A stretch of 61,487 nucleotides of DNA from Sandaracinobacter neustonicus (GTDB taxonomy: Bacteria > Pseudomonadota > Alphaproteobacteria > Sphingomonadales > Sphingomonadaceae), in NCBI RefSeq assembly GCF_006385875.1, contig NZ_VFSU01000018.1, positions 1 through 61,487 of the forward strand, read 5' to 3'. The notes under the pieces were generated by a model. The model saw nothing but the letters and a program-made list of their open reading frames with translations. It was not told where the DNA came from and did not search any database. The translations under genes and the position numbers were made by a program. This document shows positions 2,170 through 41,085 of the stretch, in pieces; position 1 is the first letter of the stretch; each line of letters starts with the position of its first letter.

Positions 2170-3360
2170 GTGAAGACTTATATTCGGGCTGCGCTGTGCG
2201 CGGCGGCTGTTGGCGTTGCGACTTCTCCGGCACTGGCGGCCGGTGACGCGAGTGCTGGCCTGCAGGCCATGCGCGAGCTGAACCTGATCGTGTTCGGCAA
2301 CGTGCACGCGAACGGTCAGGAAGTCGAAGGCAAGAGCTTCATCGGCGGCGACCTCACTGGCGGCGGCACCAACTGGGGCATCGGCAACGGCAGCCAGGGC
2401 GCGGCCGTGTCGGATTGGCGCACCCTCACCGTCAACGGCAACAACAGCAATTCGGGGTAGGTGAACAACGGCTCGAACGGCGGTGTGGGGCAGGTTTCCA
2501 CCAACCCCGGCGCGCTGATCGGCGGCAACTCCACCAGCATGAACTTCAACTGGGCGGGGTCCGGCTTCGATGTCGGCGGCAATCTGACCGGCAACAGCAA
2601 TGTCGGCCCGGGGCAGACCTACAACATCGGCGGCAATGCGTCGGGCGTGAACGGCACAGGCGGCGCGACCGTGAAGGCTGGCGGCACGATCAGCGGCAAC
2701 CAGAATGGCGCGACCTTCGTGCAAGGCCTTGGCACCGGCTGGAACGCGGCCAGCACCAGCGACGTCACGGCTGCGGCGGCGACCTCGCTGGAAGCCGATC
2801 TGAAGGCGCTGTCCAATGCGCTCTATGGTCTCAGCTTCACCTCCAACCCCTCCACTGTTGTCGCAGGCAGCCAGGGTGCGATCTTCAACGCGGCGCTGGG
2901 CGGCAATGATTATGCGCTGTTCAACATCAACGCCTCGCAGCTTGGCAACGAGATCAACTTCAACCTGCTGGATTTCTCGGCCGGGGATGCGACCATCGTC
3001 ATCAACGTCGGCGGCACCAACATCACATGGCTGTCCAACCCGGTGGGCAATTACAACGGCAGCCTGAACCAGTCGATCATCTGGAACTTCTACGAAGCCA
3101 CCAACATCGATTTCCAGCGCATGGTGCACGGCTCCATTCTCGCGCCCTTCGCGCAGATCGCCAACAACACCGCGCTGGAAGGCACGGTGGTCGCGAAGTC
3201 GTTCAACATGAACGGCGAAGTGCATCTGGGCACAGATGATGGCAATCTGGGCTTTGGCGACGTGGTTCCGGAACCCGCCACCTGGGCGATGATGATCGCC
3301 GGTTTCGGCCTAGTGGGGGCCGCAGCGCGCCGCCGCCGCCGGATTTCCGCCGCAGCCTGA
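2170..3360 (+). pseudogene. second anchor-A/PEPxxWA-CTERM gene interrupted by an in-frame TAG
   Basis: Tandem paralogue of the preceding gene. A GTG start at 2170 preceded by AGGGG gives a signal peptide ending in SPALA, then GLQAMRELNLIVFG, matching the first gene. The frame is stopped by TAG at 2458-2460, immediately followed by GTG, and then continues in the same frame for 299 codons to PEPATWAMM and an RRRRR tail at 3360. Aligned to the paralogue, the stop falls inside a conserved stretch (NSNSG-stop-VNNGSNGG against NSYTRILNGSNGG), so one base change (for example TAC to TAG) explains it. No frameshift is needed. Possible readings are a recent nonsense mutation, a sequencing error, suppression, or restart at GTG 2461 (which would lack a signal peptide). 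Confidence 0.75.
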
Positions 3361-10544: not shown

Positions 10545-10556
10545 GGGCGCGCGCGC

Positions 10557-11165
10557 TCCTCAACACGTCACCCCGGACTTGATCCGGGGTCCAGCTGTTC
10601 TTCGGCGACGTTGCAGTTGAGGAGGCTCTGCCCCCTCAAACTCCCCCGGCAGGGGAATGTTTCCCCTGCACCCCCGGACTTTTTACTTAGCCCCTCCCGT
10701 TGACGCTTCGCGTCAGCTTCGCTTCGAGGGGAGGGGTTGGGGTGGGGGCCATCCGCCTGGCGCGAGGCTGGGGTTTATGGCCTGCGGCGCTTTGGGGGGA
10801 GTCTCCCGTTCTCCTTTCCCCGCTCAGGCTGAGCTTGTCGAAGCCCCATGTGGCTGACCCACCGGGCTCAGCCATTGCGCTTTCCCTTCAGGGGCTTCGA
10901 CAAGCTCAGCCTGAGCGGGATGGAGAGCGGGTTGGGGTAACGGAGGGTTTGTGAGGATGGTGTTGGATCAGACCCGGCGTCCCCCCCTGTCTCCACCTCT
11001 CTCCCCGGCCGGGAGAGAGAGCCTCCGTAGCGCCGCAGGCAATCGAATCTGATCACTCAAACGGCGTTGGAGTTGGTCCGCGACGCCAATCTAGAGGGTG
11101 CAGGGACATCATGTCCCTGCCGGGTGGCGGGCAGAGCCCGCCCCGCCGGAGGCAAGCACCCCTCG
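10557..11165. repeat. mosaic intergenic repeat block 1
   Basis: The 629-bp gap between two convergent genes holds no credible gene. In order it contains: a palindrome of the CACCCCGGACTTGATCC type (10567-10590); a GGCTCTGCCCCCTCAAACTC module (from 10617); a GC-rich module with TTGACGCTTCGCGTCAGC (about 10687-10775); an inverted pair of the 25-bp element (10820-10918); a pyrimidine-rich stretch ending GGGAGAGAGAGCC; a CGCCGCAGGCAATCGAATC module (11026-11056); and a GGTGCAGGGACATCATGTCC hairpin module (11095-11155). The same modules recur in the other blocks described below. Confidence 0.85.
10820..10918. repeat. inverted pair of 25-bp element (pair 1, outward arms)
   Basis: The element consists of the hairpin GCTTCGACAAGC followed by the near-palindrome TCAGCCTGAGCGG. 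It occurs in minus orientation at 10820-10844 and plus orientation at 10894-10918, so the arms can pair across a 49-bp spacer. The spacer (CCCATGTGGC ... CCGGGCTCAGCC ... TTGCGCTTTC) is also conserved in the pairs at 30540, 35678 and 40653, so the whole unit of about 100 bp is the repeating entity. Confidence 0.9.
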
Positions 11166-11173
11166 GCCAACCC

Positions 11174-11689
11174 TCACCGATCCTTCTTCGCCTGCGCCTT
11201 CTTCGTCTGCTGAGACACGGAGCCCACCTTCGCGCCCGGCACCTTGGTTGCGCGCTTGGGGTTGGTGATGCTGGATTTGCCAGCCGAAGCCGTGGGTGTG
11301 TTGGTGGGGCGGGTGGAGGTGGCGCGGCGCTTTTTCGCCAACGCGCGGTGTTGCGATTCCACGATGGTGCTGCGTGCGGCGGCGATTTCGCGGCGTTCCT
11401 TTTCGGAATTGATGCGACGGATCGCCTGCGCGAACACCTGCTTGCGTCGGCCCGGTCGTTCGTAGGTGCCGGGGAAGCTGCCGCCGCGCGGATCGGCTTT
11501 GCCTTGCGAAATGCGGCGCTTGGCGTGGCTCAGGTCGCGCTGCTTGTCGTGCAGGCCACGAAGGCGGGTGCGCGCGGCCGACAACTCCTTGTCGGACAGG
11601 GCCTTGATCTCCGGCTGGTGCGTGCCTTGCACCAGAGTCCATTCCTCATGGTCGAGCAGTGCCTTTTCGGCCTTGCGATTGATCGACAT
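11174..11689 (-). CDS. conserved basic protein, unknown function
   Basis: 171 residues from an ATG at 11689. The N-terminal half is helical and charged (LLDHEEWTLVQGTHQPEIKA, LHDKQRDLSHAKRRIS), and the C-terminal third is Lys/Arg/Thr/Ser/Ala-rich and probably disordered (TKVPGAKVGSVSQQTKKAQ). The high positive charge could fit nucleic-acid binding, but no motif supports that. It starts 67 bp after the folP stop and may be the last gene of that operon. I do not recognise the family. Confidence 0.6.
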   Translation of the reverse strand: MSINRKAEKALLDHEEWTLVQGTHQPEIKALSDKELSAARTRLRGLHDKQRDLSHAKRRISQGKADPRGGSFPGTYERPGRRKQVFAQAIRRINSEKERREIAAARSTIVESQHRALAKKRRATSTRPTNTPTASAGKSSITNPKRATKVPGAKVGSVSQQTKKAQAKKDR

Positions 11690-15607: not shown

Positions 15608-15748
15608 GCTTCGACAAGCTCAGCCTGAGCGGTTTTGTGGCTCGCAGCCTGAGCGGCTTGGGATCGCAGGATCGCAACGAGGCAGAGGCACCGGCCGCCT
15701 TTCTCTATAATTCCCCTCTCCACCCGCTCAGGCTGAGCTTGTCGAAGC
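15608..15748. repeat. inverted pair of 25-bp element (pair 2, inward arms), 5' of GIY-YIG gene
   Basis: A plus-orientation copy at 15608-15632 and a minus-orientation copy at 15724-15748 face each other, ending 30 bp before the GIY-YIG start codon. A partial copy (CAGCCTGAGCGG) lies at about 15645-15656. The 298-bp gap from 15480 also holds a fragment of the GGCCCCCTCAAACTC module and otherwise no gene. The orientation is opposite to pairs 1, 4, 5 and 6. Confidence 0.85.
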
Positions 15749-15777
15749 CCCGGACGCCGTGGCACCTTTCGCTCTCA

Positions 15778-16098
15778 ATGGCCTTCCACACCTACATCCT
15801 GCGCTGCGCGGATAATTCCTACTACGTCGGCCATACCGACAACCTCGAACAACGCTTGGCCGAGCATCAGGCGGGCACGTTTGGCGGCTACACCGCGCAG
15901 CGACGCCCCGTTACATTGCTATGGGCGCAAAGCTTCCAGACCCGCGACGATGCGTTCGCGGCAGAACGCCAGTTGAAGGGATGGAGCCGGGCGAAGAAGG
16001 AAGCGATGATGGCCGGGGATTGGGAACTCGTCAGTGCCCTCGCGCGAGGCGGTGAGGTTGCTGCGCGATCCCCGGGGCCTTCGACAAGCTCAGGCTGA
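15778..16098 (+). CDS. GIY-YIG nuclease family protein, flanked by repeats
   Basis: 106 residues. The N-terminal GIY-YIG core is clear: YILRCADNSYYVGHTDNLEQ with the catalytic Arg in QRLAEH (about residue 26) and the metal-binding Glu in AAERQLKGWSRAKKEA (about residue 68). This is the minimal single-domain UPF0213-like type, with no DNA-binding domain attached. The domain ends around GDWELVSALA; the last residues, GPSTSSG and the TGA at 16096-16098, are encoded by the 25-bp repeat. Pairs of that repeat bracket the gene on both sides. ATG 15778 gives the family start; upstream codons are repeat-derived. The substrate is unknown. An association with the repeats is inference. Confidence 0.85.
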   Translation: MAFHTYILRCADNSYYVGHTDNLEQRLAEHQAGTFGGYTAQRRPVTLLWAQSFQTRDDAFAAERQLKGWSRAKKEAMMAGDWELVSALARGGEVAARSPGPSTSSG

Positions 16099-16211
16099 GC
16101 GGGTTGGGGGTAGCCTGAGTTTGATGGAGCGCGGCATTGGTAGAGCCTTTGTGTGGGTTGCGGCCCGCCCCGCCGCTCCTCTGAACCCGCTCAGGCTGAG
16201 CTTGTCGAAGC
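16078..16211. repeat. inverted pair of 25-bp element (pair 3, inward arms), 3' of GIY-YIG gene
   Basis: A plus copy at 16078-16102 (variant TCAGGCTGA) and a minus copy at 16187-16211 face each other. The plus arm supplies the stop codon of the GIY-YIG gene (16096-16098). The minus arm supplies the stop codon of the convergent amidase gene (16191-16193). Confidence 0.9.
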
Positions 16212-30263: not shown

Positions 30264-30860
30264 GTCACCCCGGGCTTGACCCGGGGTCCGGCTTGTTCTG
30301 CCGCAACGTCGGAGTTGAGTGCGGCAACCTCGGAGTTGAGGAGGCTCTGCCCCCTCAAACTCCCCCGGCAGGGGCGTGACGCCCCTGCACCCCCGAACTT
30401 TTTACTTAGCCCCTCCCGTTGACGCTTCGCGTCAGCTTCGCTTCCAGGGGAGGGGTTGGGGTGGGGGCCATCCGCCGGGCGCAAGGCTGGGTGTTTATTG
30501 CCTGCGGCGCTTCTGGGCAGTGTCCCGTCACCCCTCCCCCCGCTCAGGCTGAGCCTGTCGAAGCCCCATGTGGCGTATCCCCGGCCTCAGCCGTTGCGCT
30601 TTCACGTTGGGGCCTTCGACAAGCTCAGCCTGAGCGGGTTGAGGTAAACGGCGGGTTTTGGGGTGAGTTTGTGGGGAAGGTGGTGGATCAGGCCAACCGG
30701 TGACACCCCCTCTCCAACTCTCCCCCTTGCAGGGGGAGAGAGCTTCGTAGCGCCGCAGGCAATCGAATCTGATCACCCGCACGGCGCTGGAGATTGGGCA
30801 CGACACAAATGTTGAGGGTGCAGGGCAGAGCCCTGCCCGCCGGAGGCAGAAAGCCCCCAC
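30264..30860. repeat. mosaic intergenic repeat block 4
   Basis: The 688-bp gap between convergent degP and the small membrane gene repeats block 1 almost module for module: palindrome (30264-30287), GGCTCTGCCCCCTCAAACTC module, TTGACGCTTCGCGTCAGC module (about 30419-30490), inverted 25-bp pair (30540-30637), pyrimidine/AGAGAG stretch, CGCCGCAGGCAATCGAATC (30746-30776) and the GGGTGCAGGGCAGAGCCCTG hairpin module (30814-30848). No gene is supported here. Confidence 0.85.
30540..30637. repeat. inverted pair of 25-bp element (pair 4, outward arms)
   Basis: Minus copy at 30540-30564 (one substitution, GAGCCTGTCG) and plus copy at 30613-30637 (CCTTCGACAAGC variant). The spacer matches pair 1 (CCCATGTGGC, CTCAGCC, TTGCGCTTTC). 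Confidence 0.88.
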
Positions 30861-35499: not shown

Positions 35500-35985
35500 G
35501 GAACTGTTCCACGCGATGGGGGCTGCGCGGGGCGTTGCAGGCCATAAACCGCGACCTCGCGCCAGGCGGATGCCCCCCACCCCAACCCCTCCCCTGCAGG
35601 GGAGGGGCTAGCTGCATGGAAATCCTGTTCCTTGCAAATCCATAGGCTTTTCGTCCTTTGCCACCACTGCCCTCCGCCCGCTCAGGCTGAGCTTGTCGAA
35701 GCCCATAGGGCATGTCCCGCCAGCCTCAGCCGTTGTGCTTTCGCGTTTGGGGCTTCGACAAGCTCAGCCTGAGCGGGGGAGAGGACGGGCAAGCGATGCC
35801 CAATTGCAGAGGAAAGAATCACCAAAAAGTTCGGGGGTGCAGGGGAATCATTCCCCTGCCCGGGGTCCCCATGAACTTGTTCATGGGGGTGGGGACGGGG
35901 GAGTTTGAGGGGGCAGAGCCTCCTCAACTGCAACATTGCCGAAGAACAGCTGGACCCCGGATCAAGTCCGGGGTGACGGGTGTGG
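35500..35985. repeat. mosaic intergenic repeat block 5
   Basis: The 649-bp gap between two convergent genes holds, in inverted and rearranged order relative to block 1: GCGCCAGGCGGATGCCCCCC and CCCAACCCCTCCCC (about 35560-35612), an inverted 25-bp pair (35678-35776), a GTTCGGGGGTGCAGGGGAAT module, a GAGGGGGCAGAGCCTCC module (to about 35930) and a CCCCGGATCAAGTCCGGGG palindrome (35954-35977). Positions 35368-35500 are not recognisably repeat and show no gene. Confidence 0.8.
35678..35776. repeat. inverted pair of 25-bp element (pair 5, outward arms)
   Basis: Minus copy at 35678-35702 and plus copy at 35752-35776, both matching the consensus. The spacer again carries CCCATAGGGC, CCTCAGCC and TTGTGCTTTC as in pair 1. 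Confidence 0.88.
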
Positions 35986-40385: not shown

Positions 40386-41085
40386 CGGGCGGCGGCGGGT
40401 TTTGCCTCCGGCGGCCAAGGGCTTTGCCCTTGGAACCCAGCAGGGAAATGATTTCCCTGCACCCTCAACATTTGCGTTGTGGCCCACTCCGATGCTGTGT
40501 GAGTGATCGGATTCGATTGCCTGCGGCGCTACGTGGCTCTCTCTCCCCGTTGGGGAGAGAGGTGGAGAGAGGGGAGCAACGCCGGGCCTGATCCACTGAC
40601 CTCGCCACAAACACACAGTCTCCCCAACCCGCTCAGGCTGCACCCCTCCAACCCGCTCAGGCTGAGCTTGTCGAAGCCCGGGACGAGAACGCGCAATGGC
40701 TAAGCCCGGACTTATTCCACACGGGGCTTCGACAAGCTCAGCCTGAGCGGGAGAGAATGACGGGACGCGAGCCAAAAGCCGCCGCAGGCTATAATCGATG
40801 CCCCCCGTACCTCCAACCGTCACCCCGGACTTGATCCGGGGCGACGTGTGGAGAGATGGGTGGGGCACTCCCCCAAAGCGCCGCAGGCAGTAAGCCCCCG
40901 ACCTCGCGCCAAGCGGATGGCGCCCACCCCAACCCCTCCCCTAAAGGAGGAGGGGCTAAGAAAAAGTTCGGGGGTGCAGGGGCGTCACGCCCCTGCCGGG
41001 GGAGTTTGAGGGGGCAGAGCCTCCTCAACTCTGCCCTCTCCGCAGAACAACTGGACCCCGGATCAGCTCCGGGGTGACGTGTGGT
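40386..41085. repeat. mosaic intergenic repeat block 6 (inverted)
   Basis: The 772-bp gap between the protease and gltX holds the modules of block 1 in reverse order and orientation: TTTGCCTCCGGCGG and the hairpin CAGGGAAATGATTTCCCTG (to about 40468), GATTCGATTGCCTGCGGCG (40503-40533), CTCTCTCCCCG stretch, partial 25-bp copy (about 40628-40641), inverted pair (40653-40750), CACCCCGGACTTGATCCGGG palindrome (40819-40845), GCGCCAAGCGGATGGCGCCC module, GGGGGTGCAGGGGCGTCACG module and another palindrome (41055-41078). No gene is seen. Confidence 0.85.
40653..40750. repeat. inverted pair of 25-bp element (pair 6, outward arms)
   Basis: Minus copy at 40653-40677 and plus copy at 40726-40750. The spacer is the reverse complement of the pair 1 spacer type (GCGCAATGGC, TAAGCCCGG, ACGGGGC), so this whole unit is inverted relative to the others. 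Confidence 0.88.

Follow-up and report, generated by a model that had tools for sequence, protein, structure and literature searches.

A GIY-YIG nuclease gene bracketed by a dispersed palindromic repeat in Sandaracinobacter neustonicus: a candidate counterpart of the REPtron

Many bacterial genomes abound in short palindromic repeats, and the GTAG class of these repeats (REPs) has a known partner enzyme, RAYT. GIY-YIG enzymes include homing nucleases, some of them free-standing, and UvrC-like GIY-YIG nucleases act on damaged or structured DNA. The link between RAYTs and GTAG-tagged REPs is described in the available portions of three papers (PMC3733652, PMC6006769, PMC8266576), of which the last two give accounts of REPtrons and REP recognition. 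For a different class, the CGTC-tagged REPs, a dedicated transposase is apparently lacking, according to the available text of Di Nocera et al. 2013 (PMC3733652). The same text describes these repeats as head-to-head dimers, mostly alphaproteobacterial, with a CGTC tag, an 8-9 bp stem beginning AT, a 4-5 nt loop, and a CCA-like tail. The string GIY is absent from the available parts of PMC6006769 and PMC8266576 and from the available main text of PMC3733652, and the string "palindrom" is absent from the corresponding part of an article on the GIY-YIG superfamily (PMC1564403). Among accessory genes, PMC9465073, in its available portion, has separate entries for a GIY-YIG gene and a RAYT gene. 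A literature search that covered mostly sources other than subscription papers and bioRxiv, with the element text entered as one strand, never joined GIY-YIG enzymes to REPs.

The locus described here lies on contig NZ_VFSU01000018.1 of Sandaracinobacter neustonicus, in a stretch of 61,487 nucleotides that was analyzed as a whole and is called the window. An initial annotation had identified the open reading frame at 15778-16098 (plus strand) as a GIY-YIG nuclease gene, and a Pfam match to PF01541 (E 3.3e-19) agrees. The encoded protein has 106 amino acids, with no second domain in the Pfam search and no NCBIfam model above threshold, and the only solved structures that it matched by sequence are the UPF0213 proteins 1ywl and 1zg2. 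Y6, G18, R26, H30, and E63, which we take to be the catalytic residues of the domain, do not vary across 27 aligned relatives. The gene therefore belongs to the GIY-YIG nuclease superfamily, with the conserved Tyr, Arg, and Glu in place. Among pairs of related genes, the median dN/dS is 0.08 (59 of 74 pairs gave a finite dS), which shows the nuclease to be under purifying selection.

The gene is bracketed by copies of an element of about 25 bp, TTCGACAAGCTCAGNCTGAGCGG. The inner left copy (15724-15746, minus strand) and the inner right copy (16080-16102, plus strand) both have the tag pointing outward, and the last codons and stop codon of the gene fall within the right one. An additional copy lies further out on each side (15610-15632, plus; 16187-16209, minus), so that the order at the gene is plus, minus, gene, plus, minus. 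Four dispersed head-to-head pairs, each minus then plus, are found elsewhere in the window at 10820-10918 (copies starting at 10820 and 10896), 30540-30637 (30540 and 30615), 35678-35776 (35678 and 35754), and 40653-40750 (40653 and 40728). All of the copies claimed in the initial annotation, four around the gene and four further pairs, were thus located. Its statement that the pairs point inward only around the nuclease proved to be an artefact of grouping, because each outer copy had been paired with its inner neighbor; the two copies next to the gene run minus then plus, as the dispersed pairs do. The inner elements at 15724 and 16080 form terminal inverted repeats, a feature by which insertion sequences and MITEs are recognized.

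Twelve copies of the element occur in the window at up to three mismatches (mean of 0.00 matches in 100 shuffles of the window), and the whole genome holds 172 copies at up to two mismatches, with zero genome-wide matches to a reversed control pattern. In the stretches of this genome that were read, 21 of 22 distinct minus-then-plus pairs have a spacing of 73-78 bp, and the ten letters lying just inside the left element at the gene, GCCCCGGACG, stand at an end of the spacer in nine of the 22 pairs when counted by eye. Most of 17 aligned single copies from this genome sit within longer composite intergenic repeats (for example, L267:9330, with 160 bp flanks), and many of these repeats also contain a CGTC-type REP, a palindrome rich in CTCTCTCC, and ends that look complementary (GCCTGCGGCGC and GCGCCGCAGGC). 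Single copies had been considered as plain products of transposition; this was set aside, and they were not used as evidence of insertion, because most of them are parts of composite repeats. Single copies often share one orientation per contig. A replication-strand bias was dropped as an explanation of their orientation, since agreement with GC skew was 13/20 (p 0.26). Runs on one strand in other genomes were left out of account, as they seem to stem in part from the order in which matches are given. A search of the window for known RNA families returned one tRNA at the gathering threshold and no family corresponding to the element. Eight sub-threshold matches between 15400 and 16400, mostly to miRNA-precursor models and far under their gathering scores, were judged to be chance. 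A different repeat of about 70 bp, at 11084-11156, has many matches across several contigs of a congener.

The shape of the element was assessed with 195 distinct flanking elements that have an 11-nt loop, compared with shuffles. Stem pairs 1 and 2 are each kept in 192 of 195 elements (shuffle maxima 181 and 162), pair 3 in 186 (118), pair 4 in 178 (102), pair 5 in 167 (155), and pair 6 in 124 (118), while pair 7 is not kept (33/195, against a shuffle mean of 42.5). Pairing is thus maintained over 5-6 bp in this set. The window element has a 4-6 bp stem and an 11-nt loop; the stem covaries and the loop is conserved. Because the stem changes together with its partner strand, recognition of a folded strand is favored; half-sites bound by a protein dimer would covary too. 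The hairpin rests on covariation, because the four gene-side copies of the window, when folded as DNA, gained no stability over shuffled sequences (z -0.83 to 0.28). At the outer end of the 195 elements, columns 9-11 read C in 192, G in 157, and G in 158, a consensus that is not GTAG.

To see how far this arrangement extends, 149 genomes of the family were searched with the 106-aa protein. Subfamily A was delimited at E <= 4.5e-25 and takes in 72 matches from 49 genomes; the cut was chosen after a gap in the E-values had been seen, with the next matches starting at E 4e-13. All 72 subfamily-A loci were read, together with the next 38 rows of the match list, which are paralogues. Under a generalized rule for the element (loop TCGRC-N2/3-GCTC, stem of at least 3 bp), it lies within 200 bp of the gene at 66/72 subfamily-A loci compared with 0/38 paralogue loci. 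The commonest order, at 42 of the 72, is minus, gene, plus, and exact inverted repeats of at least 12 nt between the 200-bp flanks occur at 56 of the 72. In named genomes at least 565 stretches matched; of the best 80, 62 have the element under that rule, 44 of them as minus, gene, plus. The flanked loci among these best 80 include two in Gallionella and two in Methylobacter. A metagenome-assembled genome (MAG) contig labeled Chloroflexota is also flanked, and one labeled Thermodesulfobacteriota is flanked on one side only, although MAG labels may be wrong. Two homologues on Methylobacterium plasmids, one of them frame-broken, have inverted repeats of similar build, of 17 and 28 nt. The pairing thus appears, from sequence comparison, to reach Gallionella, Methylobacter, Methylobacterium, and, if their labels are right, MAG contigs of Chloroflexota and Thermodesulfobacteriota.

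Some loci carry variants of the element. On visual inspection, the Rudaea locus and others show the loop TCGATACCTC. A long nested version, with one hairpin enclosed in the loop of another, was likewise seen by eye at six loci and others. The long version was found at 0/38 paralogue loci. The subfamily-A loci come to 152 rows when the best 80 of at least 565 named-genome matches are included, or 145 distinct genes after removal of seven duplicates. With TCGATACCTC and the long nested versions counted, 131 of these 145 have an element within 150 bp; 15 rows were left over, most with the long element version by eye. The expectation that homologues would mostly be flanked is therefore borne out for this set. 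A plasmid copy in Sphingomonas paeninsulae has no flanking repeat (longest inverted repeat 7 nt). That copy is a subfamily-A gene with an internal stop, and it sits between rnc and era.

Repeat number and repeat type both go with the gene. The median number of core copies is 25 in the 49 gene-bearing genomes versus 0.5 in the 100 gene-less ones, in a comparison that treats genomes as independent and counts the copies beside the gene; because of the assumed independence a within-genus contrast was added, in which, across 19 genera represented by one gene-bearing and one gene-less genome, the gene-bearing one is richer in core copies in 17. Repeat number is thus not independent of the gene, as the initial annotation had anticipated. 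Its further expectation that genomes lacking the gene would be poor in repeats holds for the median, but 18 of the 100 gene-less genomes have at least 10 core copies. Conversely, 16 of the 49 gene-bearing genomes have fewer than 10, in part because other element types are present. When element types were counted instead, at least 10 typed copies were likewise found in 18 gene-less genomes. In ten of those 18, an A-type element lies within 300 bp at 0 of 28 GIY-YIG loci, and the repeats there therefore look like orphans. Orphan repeat families with 28-71 typed copies and no subfamily-A gene were noted in seven genomes.

Three element types were counted in all 149 genomes, with coarse typing (1 mismatch, 150 bp), with the copies flanking the gene itself included in the counts, and with genomes again treated as independent. 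For type 1, the mean is 21.6 and the median 8 in the 14 genomes whose subfamily-A gene is flanked by that type, versus 0.9 and 0 in the 35 other genomes bearing a subfamily-A gene. The corresponding values are 44.2 and 22.5 (20 genomes) versus 6.6 and 0 (29 genomes) for type 2, and 36.7 and 26 (15 genomes) versus 6.0 and 0 (34 genomes) for type 3. The typing is leaky, and some genomes with a subfamily-A gene hold many copies of types that do not flank it (up to 25, 58, and 125). On the gene tree, which includes the best 80 of at least 565 named-genome matches, element type changes 24 times, compared with at least 59 changes in each of 500 shuffles, so that repeat variants follow protein variants, as had been proposed. 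Inverted REPs on both sides of the gene, with dispersed copies of matching type in the host genome, are a feature shared with the REPtron, in which a RAYT gene stands between its own REPs.

The 38 paralogues had been picked as a negative control but turned out to be unsuitable as a neutral one: the A-type element is absent, and their genes often lie between copies of a different inverted repeat in the same gene-flanking layout. Exact inverted repeats of at least 12 nt in the 200-bp flanks occur at 29/38 paralogue loci and at 12/17 small GIY-YIG genes in the orphan genomes, against 22/1000 and 8/543 random intervals and 144/1406 combinations in which paralogue flanks were mixed from two different loci. 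Outside the family, a search with a paralogue profile gave such repeats at 50/79 loci compared with 3/456 random intervals. These 79 loci were taken down the score list with a few rows left out, and one of 80 was excluded because its flank was short; the counts retain three loci, out of 90 phylum-wide, whose reading frame has an internal stop. The role of negative control passed to 26 GIY-YIG genes that are more distant and belong to three other families (f38, f43, and f45, which we take to be YhbQ-type, enteric or pseudomonad), with such repeats at 0/26. A UvrC comparison set yielded a single usable locus, whose identity as UvrC is doubtful.

Many of the repeats beside this second subfamily resemble the CGTC-tagged REPs in having the CGTC tag, a stem starting AT, and a CCA tail. 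A strict regular expression for such REPs (for example, CGTCATTCCCGCG...GCGGGAATCCA) matched at 11 of the 38 paralogue loci and at 0 of the 152 subfamily-A rows, the best 80 of at least 565 included. In a larger set of 128 paralogue loci, four of which were read twice, strict CGTC hairpins stand with the tag outward on both sides at 34, versus 0/371 random intervals and 0/72 subfamily-A loci. At least one side has such a hairpin at 65/128, versus 31/371 and 7/72, and the tag points inward on both sides at 10/128. At the remaining paralogue loci the repeats are of another kind, degenerate, or absent. The paralogue tree has 32 changes of stem type (at least 34 in 200 shuffles), a weaker signal than that of subfamily A. 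One common CGTC repeat reaches at least five copies in 12 of the 79 genomes that have a strong paralogue (E <= 1e-17, a cut chosen after seeing the data) versus 5 of 220 others, with genomes treated as independent. By sequence comparison, CGTC-tagged REPs are thus frequent partners of the second GIY-YIG subfamily, at part of its loci.

Both pairings are seen in S. neustonicus. A second GIY-YIG gene, on contig 24 and outside the window, is bracketed by CGTCACCCCGGGCTTGACCCGGGGTCCAGC in the same layout, so that in this genome each of two GIY-YIG genes has a repeat of its own. Its CGTC-type version starts AC rather than AT. The window itself holds the same 26 letters as beside the second gene at 30264-30289 (plus strand) and close versions at 10567-10592 (plus), 35952-35977 (minus), and 41053-41078 (minus). 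The window's 25-bp element belongs to another class than these CGTC REPs, with its 4-6 bp stem, 11-nt loop, and other tag.

The position of the unit was compared with that in a congener. On the congener's contig 18, a homologue of 15724-16102 extends from element to element at 79% identity, and no other window stretch above 100 bp aligned to the 53 kb that were read on either side of the gene in the congener. The window neighbors of the gene are DUF937 and an amidase. In the congener these two genes lie together on contig 15, separated by 1372 bp that hold an unrelated reading frame but neither an element nor an element pair at this one orthologous site. The gene unit thus occupies different sites in the two species. 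In the same comparison, no clean empty site was found for the gene unit or for the dispersed pairs; across 180 kb read from the congener, alignments of at least 150 bp fall only between window positions 3076 and 21433. Across the REP-bearing gap at 10545-11417 the order and orientation of genes shift with respect to the congener, which marks a rearrangement breakpoint.

The 152 subfamily-A rows (seven duplicates; the best 80 of at least 565 named-genome matches included) fall into 62 site groups, 49 of which are single sites. The largest group (52 rows) lies between nrdR and an RNA methyltransferase gene and the second (16 rows) beside yqeY and dnaG, with gene names taken from one locus each and one annotated record. 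Shared and scattered site groups together indicate that the gene is held in place in some lineages and scattered in others, and the frequent nrdR neighborhood is as compatible with residence as with mobility. The gene stands in opposite orientations at the same site in 17 row pairs from two site groups, one locus being counted twice. Such cases, four pairs of loci being noted in particular, may reflect inversion between the flanking repeats.

Compared with described systems, the window unit resembles a REPtron in that a small nuclease gene is bracketed by inverted copies of a tagged, dispersed palindromic repeat and in that enzyme lineages are tied to repeat types. However, its enzyme is a PF01541 GIY-YIG protein, while that of a REPtron is an HUH Y1 transposase (PF01797), and the element has no GTAG consensus beside it. 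Because the enzyme family and the tag differ, the unit is not a member of the REPtrons, though by analogy it may work like one. The UPF0213 proteins and Bacillus YazA share the domain and size class; they differ in that neither the 26 distant genes nor Bacillus yazA (longest inverted repeat 8 nt) is flanked by an inverted repeat of at least 12 nt. A free-standing GIY-YIG homing endonuclease would share the catalytic domain and a gene seated in a repeated, target-like site, whereas the window protein has no further Pfam domain and coexists with many gene-less pairs.

Several other accounts of the locus have to be weighed. The gene could be a selfish homing endonuclease of this kind that inserted into its target, a head-to-head REP pair, with the repeats spread by other means. 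Its place inside a minus-plus pair resembling the dispersed ones, the membership of homing nucleases in the superfamily, and the different sites of related genes are compatible with such an origin. We consider it unlikely, since this genome retains dozens of pairs that lack a gene, which a cutting enzyme would hardly tolerate, since there are only 72 genes over 49 genomes, few per genome, and since copy number tracks the presence of the gene. A domesticated, structure-specific nuclease is a somewhat better candidate, though still a doubtful one: it would clear or resolve REP hairpins or cruciforms, or cut REP-bearing RNA, with flanking copies that regulate its own expression and repeats dispersed otherwise. 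Purifying selection, residence at the nrdR site (52/152 rows) and the yqeY/dnaG site (16), again with the best 80 of at least 565 included, the activity of UvrC-like enzymes on damaged or structured DNA, and the orphan repeats would all suit a house-keeping role. Mirror elements on both sides would be unusual for simple autoregulation, however, the unit sits at different sites in congeners, and no Y1 enzyme to which dispersal could be assigned was found in this genome (PF01797 being the transposase model searched).

That last result also bears on the RAYTs themselves. RAYTs are tied to GTAG-tagged REPs, and 26 of the 149 family genomes have a Y1 match, so that movement of the repeats by RAYT-type transposases would have a precedent. 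We give this hardly any weight, because the genome that holds 172 copies, a 99.42%-complete draft, has no PF01797 match at E <= 0.001 and because the outer-end consensus of the element is not GTAG. Very improbable, too, is a passive association in which the repeats are merely preferred landing or recombination sites. The elements are common in the intergenic DNA of this genome, and the gene-order breakpoint relative to the congener falls in a REP-rich gap, both in keeping with such an association. Yet element type matches gene type. In a genome that holds both classes of repeat, each gene has its own, and across relatives the A-type element is absent from all 38 paralogue loci and the CGTC expression from all 152 subfamily-A rows. 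Random intervals, which are not random genes, have inverted repeats only at the low rates given above (3/456, 8/543, and 22/1000).

We therefore favor, with a probability of roughly 0.6, the reading that the window gene encodes a dedicated REP-associated GIY-YIG nuclease, that the two inner elements are its cognate sites, and that the whole is the analogue of a REPtron. Comparisons among genomes give good support to the pairing of nuclease and repeat, which is wider than the initial annotation had claimed. That annotation had likened the locus to a RAYT system with a GIY-YIG enzyme in place of Y1; the association tests that it proposed were passed, whereas dispersal of the repeat by the nuclease is something that we infer. 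Likeliest, the nuclease would cut, move, or maintain the repeat. It may recognize the folded element, either as a hairpin in single-stranded DNA at replication forks or as a cruciform, through the loop and the tag, and could then nick beside it. Nicking might allow head-to-head pairs to be copied to further intergenic positions, or might sustain their high copy number. The gene unit would sometimes move, or flip in place, through the same ends, and in some lineages would stay fixed at one site. Two observations count against dispersal by the nuclease: some genomes have the repeats as orphans without the gene, and a clean footprint of insertion was not found.

While the GTAG class has its RAYTs, the data suggest that GIY-YIG nucleases are partners that spread or maintain palindromic repeats. 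It is a little more probable than its opposite, in our estimation, that they form a second, independent class of REP-mobilizing or REP-maintaining enzymes, unrelated to RAYTs, whose subfamilies serve different classes of repeat, CGTC-tagged ones included, with two pairs possible in one genome. If so, a recurrent GIY-YIG partner would bear on the transposase that, in the available text of PMC3733652, the CGTC class apparently lacks. Two unrelated nuclease folds would then have come to live with REPs. Both pairs provide a small enzyme and a defined DNA site, with natural variants of either, and the two pairs of S. neustonicus would serve as specificity controls for each other.
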